Below, piece after piece: positions 2,829 to 37,453 of a DNA stretch of 37,453 bases. The DNA is taken from positions 1-37,453 of the IMG/VR virus record IMGVR_UViG_3300023548_000271; one strand, written 5' to 3'. The position numbers were made by a program, and so were the translations under genes. Source of the DNA: a virus. The stretch's first letter is position 1; the number at the start of each line of letters is the position of its first letter. The notes under the pieces are model-generated. The model was not told the DNA's origin. It saw nothing but the letters and a program-made list of their open reading frames with translations, and searched no databases.

Positions 2829-5076
2829 AGAGCCGTCCTCTCCGCTCGGCCTCATAGCGATACAGGCTGTCGGCCATCGCCTGCTCAACCTGATCGCGTA
2901 CCTGGCTGGCAAGGGACCGCTCGTCCATGCCGGGGGCTGCATGGATAATAATATCCCCAATACTGATATTAAGTGGCGGTAGAGGTGCAGCGGCCGCCGG
3001 CGAAACGGCCGCCGAGGCCGCAATGGTTGCTGCGGCAGCGGCAGTCTTGAGCGGTTGCATGACGGGCTGCATCTTGACAGTGATGCCTTCTTCCCCGCCA
3101 AAGAAGCTTGAGATCGATCCCCCGATCTTTTTGCCGAACTCGGCCACCAGCTTGAAGGGGTCGCTGATCTTCTCCCAGATTGCACCAATCCATGCGACAA
3201 ACTTCTCCCAATACGGCTTGATCGGCTCCCATATTGTCAGGAAAAAACCCTTTACCTTTTCCCAGTTGGCGATCACCAGACCCGCAACCAGTGCAATGCC
3301 GCCAACAATCAGTCCAACAGGACTGCTCATGAAGGCGATCGACATGGCACGCACGCCGCCTATCACCATCGGTATAACTTTCGTTGCCAGGCCCATAAGC
3401 ATGGGGCCTGCGCTTTTCAGGGCGCCTCCCAGGGCGAAGGCTCGCGTCGCGATGGCCGCACCGATGACGCGGGCCTTGTAGAGAAGCAGAGCCGCATTGG
3501 TCCGGAGCGTTGAAATCCTGAAGAAATCAAGGACACCCTTTCCCGTTAGCCATACATCCGAAAGCAACGTGCCGGCGTATTTGGCAGCTACGGTCCATGT
3601 CGTCAATCCAATAAAGCCAACAGTCGCGCCTCCGATCACCTTGCCGAGGGCTGGATACTCTTCAACGAGCCTGCCGACCCATGCAGCCCCGGAAGACAGC
3701 GGCTCCAGCACCATGTTCAGGCCAGGCAGCAACGTGTTTGCAATGGCATCTCCGACGAGGCGGATGTTTTTGGTCGTCTTGCTCCATTGCCCTGCCGGGT
3801 CTTGCAGAAACAGCTCATAGTTTTTATCGATAATGTTCCTGGATCCCTGAGCAACGTCATCCTGGGCGCGTCTGAGAGCCTTGAGCTTCTGGCCAAGCAG
3901 GACTACGCCCCTGATGCCCTCTTCGCCAAAGGCTTTCTGCAGGCGGTCGATCGTTTCCTGATCCAGATTATCGAATCCGCCGATAACATCGGAGAGGTTC
4001 TGCAGGGTGGCGATGAAGTCCAGACCTCCGCTGGCGTCCCTTTCAATCCCGAAGCCAAACTCTTCCGCCCCCTTGGAGAGCTGCCGGAAAGTGGCTGCCA
4101 GGGCCATGCCGGCCCTTGAACCCTGAAGCCCGGATGTGTTGAGCATACCCAGCAGGGTTAGCCCCTGCTCAAGGTTCATGTTGTACTGGGCGAGTGCCGG
4201 AGCGGCAAGCTTCATCGATTCGCCGAGCTGTCCGAAATCGCGGATCTGGAACTTGAACTGCGTCTTGGTCAACAGTTCGCCAATGCGTGTCAGCCGCTCC
4301 TGCACGCCGCCTTCCAGGCTGCCGCCCAGGTTGTTGAAAACAGTCGCCACGACTTCGCCCACTGTTTCCGGCACGCCGCTCGTGATCGTGGCCACCCTGT
4401 GCACGACTTCCGAGCCGACCCTGGAGGCGCTGGCCTCCAGGCCGGCAGAATTCAGGGCATACTCGATATCGATGAGTTCAGTTTCTGTAGCCAGGCTCTT
4501 GCGGGCAAAATTCAATGCATGGCGGCTGGATTCCTTGAGGGCCTTGGCGGTGTCCTCGGCATTGATCACCGTGCGAAGACGCACCTTCGCTGTTGCAAAC
4601 TCCATCGCCCCCCGGACCGGCTTGCTTAAGGCATAGGCCGCGCCCATCATCCCCAGGGCCTTGCCGCGCAGCTCTCCCCGAAGGGCTCTGTTTCGCTGAC
4701 GTTGTTCGATCCTTTTCAGCGTCCGGTCCGCTCTTTCGGCGGCATCCTTGAGGCGTCTTTGTTCGCGGACTACGTCTCCGATTTGGATGCCGTAACTTCG
4801 CGCGGCTCGCTTGGCCTCCCTGTATCGGCGGCTGACTTCAGCAATGCCACGATTCAGGCGCTCGCTGGAATAGCCGAGAGCAGCCTGCCGGGCTTTAAGT
4901 TGATCGAGAGTTGTCTTATACTTGATGACATCGGAGGCAAGCGACTCGCCCAGCCTGGCTTTCTTGAGCGCCCTGCCAAGCCTGGCGCTCTTTTCCTCGA
5001 TCGTCTTAAAGGACCCGCCGACGCTGCTGGCAACGGACGCCCCGATAACGATACCGAGAGCGAGGGATTTAGGCAT
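2821..5076 (-). CDS. Tail tape measure protein
   Basis: At 751 aa this is the largest tail gene. Residues ~20-150 are charged, Arg/Lys-rich and coiled-coil-like. Residues ~165-430 match the TP901-type tape measure core (FATAKVRLRTVINAED, LNTSGLQGSRAGMALAATFR, FGEEGIRGVVLL). Several hydrophobic Gly/Ala-rich segments follow at ~475-610, and the end is a basic tail. The protein sets tail length and is thought to pass down the tube during DNA delivery. It follows the E/E' chaperone pair, as in P2 and lambda. The upstream 220 bases carry an antisense gene whose ATG overlaps this start codon. Confidence 0.93.
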   Translation of the reverse strand: MPKSLALGIVIGASVASSVGGSFKTIEEKSARLGRALKKARLGESLASDVIKYKTTLDQLKARQAALGYSSERLNRGIAEVSRRYREAKRAARSYGIQIGDVVREQRRLKDAAERADRTLKRIEQRQRNRALRGELRGKALGMMGAAYALSKPVRGAMEFATAKVRLRTVINAEDTAKALKESSRHALNFARKSLATETELIDIEYALNSAGLEASASRVGSEVVHRVATITSGVPETVGEVVATVFNNLGGSLEGGVQERLTRIGELLTKTQFKFQIRDFGQLGESMKLAAPALAQYNMNLEQGLTLLGMLNTSGLQGSRAGMALAATFRQLSKGAEEFGFGIERDASGGLDFIATLQNLSDVIGGFDNLDQETIDRLQKAFGEEGIRGVVLLGQKLKALRRAQDDVAQGSRNIIDKNYELFLQDPAGQWSKTTKNIRLVGDAIANTLLPGLNMVLEPLSSGAAWVGRLVEEYPALGKVIGGATVGFIGLTTWTVAAKYAGTLLSDVWLTGKGVLDFFRISTLRTNAALLLYKARVIGAAIATRAFALGGALKSAGPMLMGLATKVIPMVIGGVRAMSIAFMSSPVGLIVGGIALVAGLVIANWEKVKGFFLTIWEPIKPYWEKFVAWIGAIWEKISDPFKLVAEFGKKIGGSISSFFGGEEGITVKMQPVMQPLKTAAAAATIAASAAVSPAAAAPLPPLNISIGDIIIHAAPGMDERSLASQVRDQVEQAMADSLYRYEAERRGRLYD

Positions 5077-27459: not shown

Positions 27460-27878
27460 GATACCTCCAATACATGGCCCAGCCTCATGTGAGACGGATC
27501 TGACACCCATTCGGATACATCGAATCCGGGGCAAGATTTGTGTGGATTGAATTCGCGGTGACCATGCCATGTAGCATCCGGATACTGGACATGCAGACGT
27601 CCGTATAACCGGTTCAGAGACGACCATTGCTGGCGCGTGAATCGGTCTGTACCTATGAGGCATATCCCTATGGAATCGCGGTTGAAACCCTTACAGTGCG
27701 CGCCAACCTCATCCACATGCCTACCGCTCTCAATGGAGCCGTCCAGGGCGATCACATAGTGATAACCGATGCTCTTGAAGCCGCGCTTTCTGTGCCATTG
27801 ATCAATATCCGAAGCGTGGAATTCGCGGCCGTTGGGTGTTGCAGCGCAATGGATGATGATTTTCCGTATCGTCCGCAT
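27456..27878 (-). CDS. N-acetylmuramoyl-L-alanine amidase (T7-lysozyme type endolysin)
   Basis: This 140-aa protein from ATG 27878 has the T7-lysozyme layout: IIIHCAATPNG (zinc H10), GYHYVIALDGSIESGR (Y41), HGHREFNPHKSCPGFD (zinc H107 and C116, K114). It cleaves the amide between MurNAc and L-Ala. No signal peptide is seen, so the holin must release it. The frame extends ~23 codons upstream, but those residues do not fit the family. Confidence 0.93.
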   Translation of the reverse strand: MRTIRKIIIHCAATPNGREFHASDIDQWHRKRGFKSIGYHYVIALDGSIESGRHVDEVGAHCKGFNRDSIGICLIGTDRFTRQQWSSLNRLYGRLHVQYPDATWHGHREFNPHKSCPGFDVSEWVSDPSHMRLGHVLEVS

Positions 27879-27977
27879 GTGGTGATGCTTGTACAAAGAT
27901 CGTTGTGGCGTCTTGCGGAAAGATTTCCACGGGAAAGGCGGTTGCAACGAATCCTTAATATCAGGACCATTGCAACC

Positions 27978-28409
27978 ATGCTTCGCATCCTTATGTTTCT
28001 GATAATCATACAGCCCTCAGCAGCCATCGCTGGCAAGGCTTACGGGCCATACACTGCTGAATTGATCTCGGTTTATGACGGAGACACCTTCACCGCCCTG
28101 GCCGATATCTGGCCAAGGGACCCAAAATGGACAGAGGTCCGGATTATCGGCATTGACGCTCCTGAAATCCGAACCAGAAACGTCTGTGAAAAACAACTTG
28201 GTAAGAAAGCAAAGGCCAGACTGAAATCAATCCTGGAAAATGCCAATGAGATCAAACTGGATGAAATCAGGCGTGATAAATATTATGGCAGGGTGGATGC
28301 GCGCGTTTTTGTTGATGGGAATGATGTGGCAAGGCTCATGATCCGTTCGGGCCTTGCCAGACCTTATCATGGCGGCAAGCGGAAGCCCTGGTGTCAGGAC
28401 GGGTTATGA
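27978..28409 (+). CDS. Secreted thermonuclease (SNase family) moron
   Basis: This 143-aa protein lies on the opposite strand to the lysis and Mor genes. A signal-like start (LRILMFLIIIQPSAAIAG) is followed by the SNase domain with the full catalytic set: YDGDTF (D36), R55, GIDAPE (D60, E63) and YYGRVDA (R105). It should be exported and cut DNA or RNA outside the cytoplasm. Divergent from the amidase and convergent with Mor, it has its own unit and can be expressed in the lysogen. The upstream in-frame extension is a shadow of the amidase gene. Confidence 0.85.
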   Translation: MLRILMFLIIIQPSAAIAGKAYGPYTAELISVYDGDTFTALADIWPRDPKWTEVRIIGIDAPEIRTRNVCEKQLGKKAKARLKSILENANEIKLDEIRRDKYYGRVDARVFVDGNDVARLMIRSGLARPYHGGKRKPWCQDGL

Positions 28410-32011: not shown

Positions 32012-32285
32012 CTTTTCTGACTCTCGGAGGATATGGCCCGGTATTTCTCACAAGCTGATAGACTGTATGCCCTCCCTTGACCCCCTCGATCTTTGGCCTG
32101 GCTATACGTATATGGCCCGACATCAGCAGAGCCCGGACAAACTTATCTACATTTGATCGTGTGATTTCCGCCGTGGCCTCAAGATCCGGCAATGTGAATC
32201 GGCGCATGATTCTCATGGCTGTCCATGCCCTGTATCGAGCATTCACCTCGACCTTGCGAGTATGGGATCCGTGTTTGCGTGACAT
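31959..32285 (-). CDS. Winged-helix-like protein downstream of MuB
   Basis: This 108-aa protein from ATG 32285 overlaps the MuB stop (ATGA). It has an HTH-like segment (AMRIMRRFTLPDLEATAEIT, then SNVDKFVRALLMSGHI) and a wing (GGHTVYQLVRNTGP). The basic N-terminus (SRKHGSHTRKVE) suits DNA binding. It could be an auxiliary transposition or regulatory protein. Confidence 0.72.
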   Translation of the reverse strand: MSRKHGSHTRKVEVNARYRAWTAMRIMRRFTLPDLEATAEITRSNVDKFVRALLMSGHIRIARPKIEGVKGGHTVYQLVRNTGPYPPRVRKDGSVYDQNTGEVTVVLD

Positions 32286-32995
32286 CAACGGTGATCCGGG
32301 CCGACAAAGAACGCCTTTCCTGCCGGCCAGTCGGCCAATGTCATCCGTTTTTTGTTCTTTTTCTTGCCGAGCGTTTCGATCTGGGAGAGGCCAACACACA
32401 AGTTCCGCACGAGTCCTCTTGCTTTTTTGTGGAGCGCTGTGAGCAGATCGTCAGCAACCTCAACCTCACATAACCCATCCGCCAGCTTGCGGGCGTCATC
32501 AAAATCGCATGGCTCAAAGCGCACCCATTCCGCCAGGCGACCGGAGACCTGCTTGCGTGCCTGAATTTTCCTGTGGATTCCCTCCATGCCGATCAAAACG
32601 ACCGGAATGGAACTCATGTCATGGATATCACGCAACGTCTCCACCAGGCGTTTCTGGTCAAGAACGTAATCCGCCTCATCGACAAAAAGAGCCCTGCCTG
32701 TTTCAGACAATCGTGAGACAACTCTGTCCACCATGACGGCCAGATTCCTGGCCGGAGCTATATCGAGCTCGTCTGCAATCGCGCCAAGCATGGCTGATGG
32801 GGACCACAGGGCCATTGCTCTCACGTAGACGCCGTGACATTGATTCACGTACCAGGCGATCGCGGTTGTTTTCCCGGAGCCTGTTGGTCCATAAACCAGG
32901 CCCATTCCCGGCATGCCATATGCTCTGGTTGTCAACGCTTCGCCAGCGATGCTCATTCGCGCCACGTTTTTGATCTTCAGTATCCTTGATTTCAT
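32285..32995 (-). CDS. MuB-type AAA+ target-selection ATPase
   Basis: This is a 236-aa AAA+ protein with Walker A GPTGSGKT (36-43), Walker B LFVDEAD (103-109) and PVVLIGMEG as a sensor region. The C-terminal part is helical and basic (GKKKNKKRM). As in Mu B, it binds DNA non-specifically, activates the transposase and delivers target DNA away from the phage's own genome. It directly follows the transposase gene. It lacks Mu B's long N-terminal HTH, so it resembles BcepMu-type B. Confidence 0.92.
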   Translation of the reverse strand: MKSRILKIKNVARMSIAGEALTTRAYGMPGMGLVYGPTGSGKTTAIAWYVNQCHGVYVRAMALWSPSAMLGAIADELDIAPARNLAVMVDRVVSRLSETGRALFVDEADYVLDQKRLVETLRDIHDMSSIPVVLIGMEGIHRKIQARKQVSGRLAEWVRFEPCDFDDARKLADGLCEVEVADDLLTALHKKARGLVRNLCVGLSQIETLGKKKNKKRMTLADWPAGKAFFVGPDHR

Positions 32996-33004
32996 GATTC
33001 CTCC

Positions 33005-35113
33005 TCACTCGGCCTCGACGAATTTCCGCATCGCGGAAAACTCCACGGTTCGCTCGTAGGACTTCATCAGATCCAGCTCCCGCTCACTGAGCGTTTCTCC
33101 CCGCGTGTGTCTGGCCTTGAACGATTCATAGAGCTGCCAGTTCCGGATCGGATCATCACCGAATTCCAGAACTGTTCCTTCTTCCTTATTCGCCTGATCC
33201 GCTTCTTCCTTTTCCCACTTCTCAATGAGTGCCTGCGCCTCCTCATCCAGTGGCCGCGCAATCTGTGGCTCGTTTTTCGGTTTATGGATCCGCACGATCT
33301 TTGCGTCCGGAACGTCTGCCTGAGCGATATCGGGCAGCATTGCTGCGGCCTCTAACACGCTCATCCGACGTTGCGCCTCCAACTGGGCTTTTGTCGCTCG
33401 TATATATCGCTTGCGGTTCCTGGCGTGCTCTTTTGCCGCCTGAACATTGTTGAACCCCTCAGCCTCAAGGCATATCGCGGTGCCGATGAAGCGGTTGTCG
33501 AGGGTGAATGCATGCACTGGATAATGGAGCTTGTCTGGGTCAAATCGCAGAACGACCCTGTGGCCAGCATATTCTTCCAGCTCCTCACACCAATAGCGGT
33601 TCCTCCGATCGAATTTCAAATGAACGCTTCCATCCCCCCGGACCATCACACCCTCAGCTGCCAGCAACCAGAGCTTGAACTGGTTTGATGTTGCCTTTCT
33701 GATGACACTTTTCTCATATGATTCGGCGAATATCAGATCAAAGCTTCTTCCGTTTGCGATACCGCCGCGCCTTCCCATTCTTGCGTTATGGGCTGCTATT
33801 TCTTCAGACAGGACGGACAGAAACACTCTCAGGTCAATCGCCTTTGACCCGTAGTTTTCCGGTTTTGCGTCTGGTTTGTTTCCCGTGTAGGCACCCGAGA
33901 ATTTGGGGTGTTTGGCCACATATTCGCAGAGATCGCGGAAGGCGCGCTCGATTGGTTTGGCCTGGCCATGATAGGGTGTTGTCCAGTGGATCTGGACGCC
34001 CATCGTCACCATGATGCCTGTTGGATCCTCAGGCCGTATTTTGAATCGGAACCGGTTGGGCGCGCCGCCTGTGAGCCATTTCGCGGCAAAACCACGGCCA
34101 TTATCGAGATAGGCATGGTCGGGTATTCCGTATGTTTCGACCATGTCGCCAAATGACAGTCTGATGGAGTCCGCATTTTCCGTCTTCGCCACTCGATATG
34201 ACAGAATCTTGGATGAGTAGATATCCTGCCATGCGACCATGATCGGCCTGGTCACCTCCCCATCCGGCCACTTCACAAACACATCAAACCTGTGGCCATC
34301 AGCGTTGACCGCCTCCATCGCATGGAAGACTGTTTTGTCCCGTTCCTGGGCCGGATATGTCTTTTTGACGGCATCGACCCCTTTTCTGGCCAGGATCCGG
34401 ACCCCGCGGGGGATCTCTTTACGGATGCGGCGCTGGACGGTCCGTAGATCCGGCACCTTCCATCCTTTCTCGCTTGCCACGCGCATAAGACGCTCGTAGC
34501 AAGCGGCTGAGGCCGGTCCTTCCAGCCTCAGATAGTCGGCCTTGAACCAGTTCCATGCTTCCGGACTGAATTCCGCGGTCTTGACCCGGCCACAATAGGC
34601 TGGCGTCAAAATGGGCCACCAGTCCGATGGGTGGATGTGTTTTACTTTTCTGATCCAGCTACGAAGTGTCGGCACGGACACACCATATTGATCGGCCACC
34701 AGACCAATGAGCTTGGATTTCGGATCGCAGGGAAGTCCGGCCTCCCGGGACGCGTCCGACCGGGCACATAACTCACGATACAGGTGGATTGCCATGACAG
34801 CCTTTTTGCCGCGAGCCTTGAGTGATTCGGGCTTGCGAGCCCACGCATCCCACAGGCTCTCACGCTGGACGTCCGTAAGATCTCCAGGATGCCTGTGCGG
34901 AACGGGATTGCCGGCGTTTTCTTTCTCACGGCGATAGAGCGCCACCTGCGCCTGGATCGGCAGGCTGCCCAGGGCATACTCCCAGCCGCCGCCGCGGCCC
35001 TTGCGCCGGCGCTTTTCCCAGCTTTCGCGCTTGGCGCGAATCTGAATTGCGCGTTCACTCCCTGGCAGGCCCGGCAGGCCGGCCAGCTCGCGGGCGGAAA
35101 ACCAGGACTTCAT
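33005..35113 (-). CDS. DDE transposase, MuA type
   Basis: This is a 702-aa protein from ATG 35113, with CGGAG upstream. The first ~60 residues (SWFSARELAGLPGLPG, then WEYALGSLPIQAQ) are the Mu-type winged-helix domain that binds the internal activating sequence. Ibeta/Igamma helical domains follow to ~255. The catalytic RNase H-like core has NADG (D272), YLDNGRG (D337) and KPIERAF (E389), a complete DDE triad. The C-terminal barrel and a MuB-binding tail (~600-702) are present. It should be active. Confidence 0.95.
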   Translation of the reverse strand: MKSWFSARELAGLPGLPGSERAIQIRAKRESWEKRRRKGRGGGWEYALGSLPIQAQVALYRREKENAGNPVPHRHPGDLTDVQRESLWDAWARKPESLKARGKKAVMAIHLYRELCARSDASREAGLPCDPKSKLIGLVADQYGVSVPTLRSWIRKVKHIHPSDWWPILTPAYCGRVKTAEFSPEAWNWFKADYLRLEGPASAACYERLMRVASEKGWKVPDLRTVQRRIRKEIPRGVRILARKGVDAVKKTYPAQERDKTVFHAMEAVNADGHRFDVFVKWPDGEVTRPIMVAWQDIYSSKILSYRVAKTENADSIRLSFGDMVETYGIPDHAYLDNGRGFAAKWLTGGAPNRFRFKIRPEDPTGIMVTMGVQIHWTTPYHGQAKPIERAFRDLCEYVAKHPKFSGAYTGNKPDAKPENYGSKAIDLRVFLSVLSEEIAAHNARMGRRGGIANGRSFDLIFAESYEKSVIRKATSNQFKLWLLAAEGVMVRGDGSVHLKFDRRNRYWCEELEEYAGHRVVLRFDPDKLHYPVHAFTLDNRFIGTAICLEAEGFNNVQAAKEHARNRKRYIRATKAQLEAQRRMSVLEAAAMLPDIAQADVPDAKIVRIHKPKNEPQIARPLDEEAQALIEKWEKEEADQANKEEGTVLEFGDDPIRNWQLYESFKARHTRGETLSERELDLMKSYERTVEFSAMRKFVEAE

Positions 35114-35132
35114 GACCGGTCTCCGCGTGCTA
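35061..35132. repeat. 72-bp perfect direct repeat, copy 1 (transposase 5' end)
   Basis: The sequence starting CCTGGCAGGCCCGGCAGGCC at 35061 is identical, base for base, to 35962-36033. It contains the first 17 transposase codons, its ribosome site and the start of a divergent promoter element. Outside the 72 bases the two copies diverge. The rest of the homologous N-terminal region continues to about 34947, with ~65 % amino acid identity to the partner region ending at ~35849. Confidence 0.95.
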
Positions 35133-35143
35133 CTATCCACGGC
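35128..35143 (+). promoter_or_regulatory. Extended -10-like element directly before a plus-strand start
   Basis: TG-C-TACTAT (35128-35136) is an extended -10-like element, and seven bases (35137-35143) separate it from ATG 35144. This distance would place transcription start at the first base of the ATG, i.e. a leaderless mRNA, and no ribosome site is present. The same element and spacing recur at 36029-36044. The identification as a promoter is inference. Confidence 0.45.
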
Positions 35144-35605
35144 ATGCGCATATATCGCCTGGAAGCGCCGGCAGCCACGGGCCGTGATATCGAGCGGCTA
35201 CGCTCCAATGTTTTATTTCTCTTTACATTCGACGAGATCGAGAATGAGCTGCTAACCATCCGCAAGGCAATGGCCCTGCCCGCGAAGCCGACCGGCGTCA
35301 CGATGGATGACGAAGACTGGGAGCCGGTCATCATTGATCTGCTTGTTCGTCTTGGCGATCGGCTCGAAACCGATACCTTGGCTGAATGGGCTCGCAATTT
35401 GCCGGACGATTCTCGGATGATGGTCGCAGAACAAATTCGACGGGCATTGGCTGCGGCTCGTCGCGCAAGGCGTATCGTTGACAGTGTTGGCAGCGGATCA
35501 GGCCTGCTTCTTCCAGCTCTCTTTCAAAGAAGGATGCAAGCCATCTTAGGATTCGCCGAGCTGCCCATTGCCTGGGTCCGAAAGCTGGACGTTTTACGGT
35601 TTTAA
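35144..35605 (+). CDS. Plus-strand protein divergent from transposase, unknown
   Basis: This is a 153-aa protein. It starts 31 bases from the transposase start and runs the opposite way. The sequence shows RSNVLFLFTFDEIENELLTI, EDWEPVIIDLLVRLGDRLET and RMMVAEQIRRALAAARRARR, mostly helices, with no recognised domain. It has no ribosome site. The frame continues past the TAA at 35603 for another 69 codons. The location suggests a lysogen-expressed or immunity-type gene; homology is unknown. Confidence 0.58.
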   Translation: MRIYRLEAPAATGRDIERLRSNVLFLFTFDEIENELLTIRKAMALPAKPTGVTMDDEDWEPVIIDLLVRLGDRLETDTLAEWARNLPDDSRMMVAEQIRRALAAARRARRIVDSVGSGSGLLLPALFQRRMQAILGFAELPIAWVRKLDVLRF

Positions 35606-35815
35606 AAGCTCGCACCTCTTCGGGTTCCACAAATCGAGACCTTGAGGCAAAGCTTAGAATTGCTTGAGCGCAAGCTCGCGTGTCTGAAGCATGCCCGCGG
35701 CCACGATTATCCTCCTGCGGCGTTGTTTGCTGTGCCAAACGTCTGGCATCGCCGTTGGGAGATCCTGCTTCAAGGGATGTTGATTCCTGTTTGGACGGCT
35801 TATGTAACGTTTTAG
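35606..35815 (+). other. In-frame coding-like remainder after the TAA of the plus-strand gene
   Basis: The frame of the 35144 gene stays open from 35606 to a TAG at 35813-35815 and reads like protein: IETLRQSLELLERKLACLKH, AALFAVPNVWHRRW and LLQGMLIPVWTAYVTF. Either the gene has one premature TAA, or the two parts are separate relics joined by recombination. The stop itself lies in GGTTTTAAAAGCTCGC, a sequence that resembles the phage-end repeat at 402-416. Confidence 0.35.
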
Positions 35816-35848
35816 GAGCGGGAACGAGGATAAAGCCGCGGAGCGCAG

Positions 35849-36014
35849 CCTGCGCCTCGATCGGCAGGCTGCCCAGGGCATACTCCCAGCCTTTTCCTGC
35901 GAGCTTCTTGCGTGCTTCCCAGCCTTCGCGTTCCGCCATCTTGCGGATGCCTCGATCTGTTCCTGGCAGGCCCGGCAGGCCGGCCAGCTCGCGGGCGGAA
36001 AACCAGGACTTCAT
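35849..36014 (-). pseudogene. Truncated second transposase N-terminal domain
   Basis: From ATG 36014 the frame encodes SWFSARELAGLPGLPGTDRG and then KGWEYALGSLPIEAQAAL, clearly the transposase N-terminal DNA-binding domain, after which homology ends. It continues as an open frame to 35331, but the continuing part overlaps the plus-strand gene and shows no transposase domains. The first 17 codons are identical to the active gene, the rest only ~65 % identical. It may still make a short DNA-binding fragment. Confidence 0.75.
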
Positions 36015-36033
36015 GACCGGTCTCCGCGTGCTA
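35962..36033. repeat. 72-bp perfect direct repeat, copy 2
   Basis: This copy is identical to 35061-35132 over 72 bases and contains the start of the partial transposase copy. Flanking DNA diverges on both sides: the other side leads into a different plus-strand gene. The 901-base distance between copies equals the length of the apparent inserted unit. Confidence 0.95.
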
Positions 36034-36044: not shown

Positions 36045-36554
36045 ATGGACAAGGAAACCCGAGCAGCCATCAACGCCATCCGTCTGGAAATCGATGAGAT
36101 GCGTGAAAACGACCTCTCTTTTGCGCTTGCCAAAGAAGTGGACGCGCTCTGGCAGGCGCTGGACTTGCTGGGCCAGAAGTTGTTTCCGTTGATGGACGGA
36201 AAGACAGCCGCAAACATCATTCTTGCCCTTGAGAATCTTGAGGTGGAGTGGCGCCAGAAGCGCCTCCCCGTTGACTCATCGATTTTTCGTGCGATCCAAG
36301 GCTGGCGCGGCGTTCTAGAGACCGTTGCCGCCGTAGGCGATCTTCTGGATCCGGGAAAAGGCGCTCAAGAAAGCTTGGCCCGTGGTCGCCGATCTCGGCT
36401 CTACGACGCTCTATCTCATGAGCGGCGATTGCGCGGCGAATCTCCCGACGCTCCAGATTCTCAGCCTCAATCCGGGCCATCTCATCCCGAACAATCCGGC
36501 GAACCCACGCCTCCAGGCGAGCGCCAGGATGAAACCGATCAAGAATCCTCATAA
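36045..36554 (+). CDS. Plus-strand protein at the second repeat, unknown
   Basis: This is a frame of 169 aa, with ATG 36033 as a less likely start inside the -10-like element. The N-terminal ~95 residues look real and helical: ETRAAINAIRLEIDEMREND, EVDALWQALDLLGQKLFPLM, AANIILALENLEVEWRQKRL. The C-terminal ~65 residues (Pro/Ser/Gln-rich) lie antisense to the gene at 36217-36552 and may be only a shadow extension. No family recognised and no similarity to the plus-strand gene at 35144. Confidence 0.5.
   Translation: MDKETRAAINAIRLEIDEMRENDLSFALAKEVDALWQALDLLGQKLFPLMDGKTAANIILALENLEVEWRQKRLPVDSSIFRAIQGWRGVLETVAAVGDLLDPGKGAQESLARGRRSRLYDALSHERRLRGESPDAPDSQPQSGPSHPEQSGEPTPPGERQDETDQESS
36217..36552 (-). 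CDS. Small early protein, Arg-rich helical
   Basis: This is a 111-aa protein. ATG 36552 overlaps the upstream stop (ATGA) and has GGAGGAGG ahead. It shows RILDRFHPGARLEAWVRRIV, then EMARIEAENLERREIRRAIA and FLERLFPDPEDRLRRQ, and a low-complexity Ser/Gly/Gln tail. The strong start and coupling support it. It runs antisense to the 3' half of the plus-strand 36045 frame. Likely nucleic-acid-associated, but unassigned. Confidence 0.68.
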   Translation of the reverse strand: MRILDRFHPGARLEAWVRRIVRDEMARIEAENLERREIRRAIAAHEIERRRAEIGDHGPSFLERLFPDPEDRLRRQRSLERRASLGSHEKSMSQRGGASGATPPQDSQGQE

Positions 36555-36989
36555 TTCCTCCTCCATGCGCTTGAGCGCCTCGCGGATGCGTTTGTACTCC
36601 CGGTCCGCCTTCATCTTGAGCATCTCGAAGCGGCCAAGCTGCGCCTCCAGGACCTCGCGGCCGTAGAGCATGCGGCCGCCGCAGCGCTCGGCCATGAACT
36701 GGGAAACGATGTGCGTGCACGTGGCGGCCTCGAAGGCCGGCAGGAACTCCAGCGGGAAGCGCCAGGCGCGGCGGGCCGTGGACGTCCAGGCGTCCAGCAT
36801 GGCCTTCGTGACCTCGCAGCCTGCGGCGCGGCTCATGCGCGCGGCGATCTCGAAGCGGTCGTGGGGCGATTCCCTGATCGCCTCGGCCAGCAGGTTCGGG
36901 ATGATGTGGGAGAGATTGAGGCTCCCGGGCGGCTCCTCACGGCGCGGCATCGGCGCGAACATGTCCCGCGTTTTTTTATCCCTCCTCAC
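36549..36989 (-). CDS. Conserved Mu-like early protein
   Basis: This is a 146-aa protein starting at a GTG (36989). It has the pattern DMFAPMPRREEPPGSLNLSH, RFEIAARMSRAAGCEVTKAM, LDAWTSTARRAWRFPLEFLP and a Gly-rich AERCGGRMLYGREVL near the C-terminus. This family is familiar from early regions of Mu-like phages. The central HTH-like part suggests DNA binding. The function is not established. A second ATG (36962) is a possible start. Confidence 0.82.
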   Translation of the reverse strand: MRRDKKTRDMFAPMPRREEPPGSLNLSHIIPNLLAEAIRESPHDRFEIAARMSRAAGCEVTKAMLDAWTSTARRAWRFPLEFLPAFEAATCTHIVSQFMAERCGGRMLYGREVLEAQLGRFEMLKMKADREYKRIREALKRMEEEL

Positions 36990-37096: not shown

Positions 37097-37453
37097 CTAT
37101 TCCACCGCACGCAATTCGACCTTGCGCTTACGGCCGCCCCAGCTACGCTTGAGAAGTTTGGTACCCGGAACGACAGGCCGGCCGTATTCGTCGTAGCGAT
37201 CCGGCCACAGCTCCCAGGGTTTGCGCTCCAGGAGTTCGGCGATGATGCGCTCGACCGCCGGCCAGGGGATATAAAGCGCGCGTTCGGCGGCGCGCGATGA
37301 ATAGCCGTGCTCGCGGGATACTCGGCTCATCGTCCAGCCGCGCTTGCGCAGCTCGCACTTGATATCCTCCGGGTGCCAGCCCTTGCGGGGCCGGCGCACG
37401 CGCTTGAGTCCCGCGGTGTTTTGCTTGTCTATTTTCGCTGCTCGATTGGACAT
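37097..37453 (-). CDS. Ner-like transcription regulator (Nlp/HTH family)
   Basis: This is a protein of 118 aa whose ATG is the last base triplet of the window, so an upstream extension cannot be excluded. It has the Ner core: GWHPEDIKCELRKRGWTMSR, SREHGYSSRAAERALYIPWP and ELLERKPWELWPDRYDEYGR. In Mu, Ner is the first early gene product and represses both the early and repressor promoters. The longer, basic C-terminus (KLLKRSWGGRKRKVEL) goes beyond Mu Ner. Confidence 0.9.
   Translation of the reverse strand: MSNRAAKIDKQNTAGLKRVRRPRKGWHPEDIKCELRKRGWTMSRVSREHGYSSRAAERALYIPWPAVERIIAELLERKPWELWPDRYDEYGRPVVPGTKLLKRSWGGRKRKVELRAVE

Follow-up and report, generated by a model that had tools for sequence, protein, structure and literature searches.

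Layered opposite-strand accessory genes beside a repeated transposase start in the early region of a Mu-like phage

The interval between the early regulatory genes (ner, orf3 and orf4) and the transposase gene A of a Mu-like phage is best explained as a slot into which short accessory genes of the opposite strand are inserted, and in which layers of such genes arose by recombination between related phages. We give this reading a probability of about two in three. The DNA analysed, referred to below as the window, is a stretch of 37,453 nucleotides (IMG/VR record IMGVR_UViG_3300023548_000271). It is part of a Mu-like phage genome, breaks off where the start codon of a ner-like gene lies, and does not contain the c-ner operator region.

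The early operon of the window runs on the minus strand in the order ner, orf3, orf4, A and B. Gene A (33005-35113, minus strand) encodes a MuA transposase of 702 aa: all four domains are present (Pfam HTH_Tnp_Mu_1, HTH_Tnp_Mu_2, DDE_2 and Mu-transpos_C; PHROG 310) and the gene of the MuB-type transposition ATPase B adjoins it (32285-32995, minus strand; phrog_296, AAA_22). At the other end of the operon lie the ner-like regulator (37097-37453, minus strand; HTH_35), at whose start codon the record stops, and the early regulator orf3 (36549-36989, minus strand; phrog_2345), which is 37% identical to orf3 of phage D3112. The start of the small early gene orf4 (36217-36552, minus strand) overlaps the stop of orf3 (ATGA). 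Within the 5' part of orf4, a single short stretch is similar to D3112 orf4, and the 3' part of orf4 overlaps an open reading frame of the opposite strand, plus2. The D3112 operon has the order ner, orf3, orf4, orf5, A, B and thus the same beginning as that of the window. Far from this region, an ORF with a staphylococcal-nuclease (SNase) domain (27627-28409, plus strand) lies opposite to the genes that surround it.

The loci used for comparison are regions around related transposases, taken from genome and virus collections and designated by L and a number. An orf3 could be recognised before A in 104 of them. In 80 of these 104, the gap between the two genes is no larger than 150 bp, and the gap in the window, 1439 bp, is the largest. 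Another relative, L185, shows the plain order ner-orf3-A with overlapping ends, and neither SuMu nor a Mannheimia Mu-like phage has an annotated gene between ner and A. The slot before A shows one feature of phage morons, a gene inserted between two genes that adjoin each other in relatives. The divergent gene found there varies between relatives: plus1 of the window groups with genes of L089, L138 and L174, and further groups comprise L014, L126, L136 and L021, then L063 and L132, and L023 and L121, in addition to two genes of L100. A preliminary description of this DNA had named a layout that was fixed in all relatives, with no variation in the plus-strand gene, as the observation that would speak against exchange; the comparison of loci found no such layout.

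Divergent genes lie against A in L014, L126, L136, L138, L023, L121 and L100. For L014, L126 and L136 we rejected the co-directional overlapping ORFs, as conservation is much stronger for the divergent reading (L014 against the other two, E ~1e-30 versus 1e-6). The genes of L023 (5495-5998, minus strand) and L121 (2044-2556, minus strand) form another divergent-gene family against A, with an FMWDNRLLAPR and a CPFC motif in common. L100 has two small divergent genes and, just upstream of each, one of the two copies of an 81-bp repeat (1641-1721 and 1991-2071; 89% identical), with one copy adjoining A; this arrangement independently parallels that of the window. Repeats were also seen in two other loci. 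In L023, an inserted small early-region gene is flanked by a direct repeat of 75 bp and 97% identity (3994-4068 and 4414-4488) that lies at the end of ner. L013 carries a 37-bp, 95% identical repeat (513-549 and 781-817), with copies right where the transposase begins and one gene farther upstream.

In the window, the first divergent gene upstream of A is plus1 (35144-35605, plus strand, 153 aa). We conclude from its homologs and codon usage that plus1 is a real gene. Full-length homologs occur in L089 and L174 (36-44% aligned identity) and a more distant homolog in L138 (about 30% identity); all three lie opposite a Mu-like early operon, that of L138 directly against A. These full-length homologs overturned a dismissal of plus1 as an ORF that had arisen by chance in GC-rich DNA. 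In frame and immediately behind the plus1 stop codon follows Z (35606-35815, plus strand), a stretch of ~68 codons with a stop (35609-35815) that matches a gene of L063 from Sedimenticola (2029-1415, minus strand; phmmer E 2.5e-9). Judging from this match, Z is the 3' portion of a second gene, probably of the same family as plus1, and plus1 and Z were not seen as parts of one gene in any of the relatives compared. The direct joining of plus1 to the 3' end of another gene is a signature of replacement, and the scar suggests that divergent genes have been swapped in and out at the site before A.

The second divergent ORF, plus2 (36045-36554, plus strand), has a codon usage that favours coding only to ~36350. 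No homologs of plus2 were found, wider searches giving weak and scattered matches only, and its comparison with the plus1 family gave no support for membership. The lack of plus2 homologs counts against the layered slot, and so does base composition, since plus1 and Z (GC 0.554 and 0.533) differ only mildly from A (0.567; window, 0.593).

A model of the plus1 family (AlphaFold2 from ten aligned sequences, pLDDT 74) was compared with solved structures using Foldseek and VIA-align 2. One structure matched, that of H. influenzae HI1480 (PDB 1mw5; Foldseek E 1.6e-4), which we take to be a gene of the FluMu prophage near the FluMu transposase. The structural alignment covered 140 residues (VIA Z 12.1, rmsd 4.4, 11% identity; next row 3.8), and plus1 is predicted to have the HI1480 fold over most of its chain. 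The likeness was seen in the predicted fold; no match was obtained by sequence, where a profile of the ten family sequences failed to retrieve 1mw5 at E values up to 10. HI1480 itself has been described as a protein without significant sequence relatives (PMC1190158). Searches with the plus1 family in Pfam, PHROGs and PADLOC returned no convincing family, and a fold search of BFVD gave nothing below E 0.001. A superfamily uniting the divergent genes is indicated by chained matches (L063-L021, E 1e-4 to 1e-5), a shared position and a shared C-terminal motif; the direct profile comparison of the two main groups was not significant.

The start of A is present twice in the window. Positions 35061-35132 are identical to 35962-36033 over 72 bases without mismatch, at a spacing of 901 and both on the minus strand; a 70-base core with up to three mismatches was found at two places only in the window and in none of 100 dinucleotide shuffles. 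The identity reported in the preliminary description is thereby borne out, and the protein identity of ~65% that it gave for the sequence beyond the repeat is close to the ~62% measured here. Its account of the extent stands for the exact 72 bp; the similarity as a whole is longer, reaching ~81% over 202 columns (34937-35132 against 35841-36033). It left out that the homology stops at codon 59 and that, beyond this point, two coding stretches of the plus strand lie antisense to the upstream frame. The 72-mer comprises the ribosome-binding site of A (GGAG, within 19 bp of upstream sequence), its start codon and its first 17 codons, and is at the same time the region immediately upstream of a divergent gene. 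The upstream copy forms the start of A', a second copy of the N-terminal DNA-binding domain of the transposase (codons 1-59; 35838-36014, minus strand). A 31-base piece spanning the start codon had no exact match among 2.9 million IMG/VR contigs, a set that may leave out near relatives of the window.

The similarity between A and A' is patchy. Codons 1-17 are identical, codons 18-42 have diverged (6 identical, 6 synonymous, 13 replaced) and codons 43-59 are almost identical (14 identical, 0 synonymous, 3 replaced). These 59 codons of A' make up an intact HTH_Tnp_Mu_1 domain (residues 9-58; 51 bits in Pfam) without the catalytic domain, and they match the repressor family phrog_7148. Past codon 59, A' has no coding C-terminal tail and stop of its own. 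The frame remains open to 35331, antisense to Z and plus1, and codon usage favours coding only to ~35780. Over 35331-35837 the frame is open for 167 codons where synonymous shuffling predicts 3.2 stops (P 0.011), a length that a simple remnant does not predict and that counts against the layered slot. We dropped a 227-aa A' protein as first choice, since homologs exist for plus1 and Z, to which its tail would be antisense; in view of the long open frame, such a protein may nevertheless exist. The end of Z lies 22 bp from the last A'-homologous codon, a short distance similar to that in L014, L126, L136 and L121, where the divergent gene ends 6-16 bp past the stop of the preceding gene.

The Mu repressor and MuA have an N-terminal domain in common (Pfam family PF02316). 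A' resembles the Mu repressor c and domain I-alpha of MuA in being this N-terminal domain outside the transposase; it differs from c in sitting between orf4 and A instead of at the position of c, and in having no C-terminal part of its own. A' could accordingly be a working stand-alone copy of the enhancer- and operator-binding domain of the transposase that, like the Mu repressor, would compete with A for sites and damp transposition, with the identical start region matching the translation of A' to that of A. We take this possibility seriously without favouring it. It agrees with the preservation of the domain, its match to a repressor family and the unexpectedly long open frame. Stand-alone transposase start domains also occur elsewhere, just before A and in operon direction, in L157 (3444-3749, 101 aa), L026 (417-821, 134 aa) and L011 (5657-5992, an ORF of 111 aa), and L075, L078 and L079 each have more than one copy upstream of A. 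Unlike the genes of L157, L026 and L011, however, A' lacks a stop and tail of its own, and its continuation is antisense to Z and plus1 and has no coding signal beyond ~35780. The divergence between A and A' moreover falls in codons 18-42, so that their binding sites may differ.

Alternatively, the start of A and its flank may have been copied by internal tandem duplication within one phage and then have diverged, with no donor phage involved. The 72 identical bases common to A and A' would fit this, as would their identity of 71% over 59 aa, which is above that of either to the best relative checked (L089, 57-61%). Two near-identical stretches flanking a diverged middle are, however, unlike plain divergence after a single duplication: synonymous differences are absent from codons 1-17 and 43-59, and there are several between. 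Nor are the two plus-strand genes recognisable duplicates, and the gene of which Z is a fragment is a different one; we consider such a duplication improbable. That a metagenome assembly error joined two strains is very improbable: although the sequence comes from an IMG/VR virus contig that lacks end repeats and the repeat lies within the affected region, a false join through the 72-mer would place plus2 directly before A and would not create the A' fragment, Z, plus1 and a second copy, and no repeats lie at the junctions 35605/35606 and 35815-35838.

The start of a divergent gene and the start of the next early gene are 30-31 bp apart in the window and 5-61 bp apart in most relatives, where the distance is to the start of the transposase domain. 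At such proximity, the first codons of the early gene, or the sequence next to them, must contain the promoter of the divergent gene. Of 15 divergent genes, 7 have an extended -10-like element, GCTANNNT, at 15-53 bp upstream, against 1.1% of random 70-mers, the pattern having been picked after inspection. The 72-bp repeat ends within this GCTANNNT element, copy 1 terminating within that of plus1, and the divergent genes may be expressed from promoters inside the repeat. No promoter passed a scan for the strict sigma-70 consensus, which counts against the layered slot. Terminator-like matches were no commoner than expected by chance, and none lies behind plus1.

In the beetrevirus Fc02, the gene olg1 occupies the strand opposite to a ner-led early operon; lysogens transcribe it, and it excludes superinfecting phages (PMC9936078). 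By analogy, this shared placement opposite a ner-led operon suggests that the divergent genes may be expressed in the lysogen. Unlike plus1, olg1 encodes a 7.9-kDa protein, lies upstream of the repressor gene and overlaps gene 10 (PMC9936078).

Under the layered-slot reading, the slot would be doubled in the window: after orf4 comes plus2, divergent from A', and then Z/plus1, divergent from A. In the order of events that we infer, a unit consisting of a divergent gene and an A start would have come to adjoin another such unit by recombination between related phages, A' being what remains of a separate start-domain gene or having been one. Z would once have occupied the space between A' and A, and plus1 would later have replaced the 5' part of Z, leaving its 3' end at the plus1 stop. 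The start of A is at the edge of every divergent unit and hence a natural place for homologous exchange. The 72-mer is a plausible recombination anchor or crossover site, and the exact repeat would permit a 901-bp collapse to a simpler orf4-plus2-A layout. Among the relatives searched, none carried the same 72-bp repeat, or a swapped or collapsed state at it; because no sister phage with an alternative state was found, we can only infer that the 72-mer was used in this way.

Exchange at a divergent accessory-gene slot with cassette turnover is well supported. The repeat, the mosaic identity of A and A', the coding content of both strands, the Z remnant and the variability among relatives are direct observations. 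The exchange with another phage proposed in the preliminary description is upheld insofar as a mosaic locus took in foreign units, at a place where the plus-strand gene varies, where most relatives have no room and where plus1 abuts Z; its view of the 72-mer as a cassette anchor found no counterpart among the relatives searched. Its picture of a single unit entering a plain locus does not hold, as three divergent genes or remnants (plus2, Z and plus1) and a partial second transposase start are present instead. A more far-reaching version would have the divergent-gene promoter lie inside the first codons of the transposase, the gene and the start move as a unit, the conserved A start act as a general anchor for stacking, replacement and collapse, and A' still regulate A. 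We regard this version as unlikely.

Mu-like phages of P. aeruginosa contain accessory 'regions of genomic plasticity' with moron-like genes, whose mechanism of acquisition has been called mysterious and for which no common flanking sequences were recognised (PMC4378225). Like these regions, the window has short genes without an assigned function among its core early genes, and these short genes vary from one relative to the next. In contrast to them, its genes are on the opposite strand and begin beside the start of A, and the repeat and the gene remnant hint at a route of exchange. As an instance of phage mosaicism the locus is ordinary in kind; it is unusual in that its scar is readable and in that an unnamed gene family is linked to a solved structure. 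The way in which temperate phages acquire short accessory genes has long been a question, and the record kept at this locus consists of a unit with a transposase start at either side and of a complete gene that abuts the tail of a second one, probably a member of the same family. With HI1480 as a structural relative, the unnamed opposite-strand family of Mu-like phages becomes recognisable and testable, for example for superinfection exclusion.
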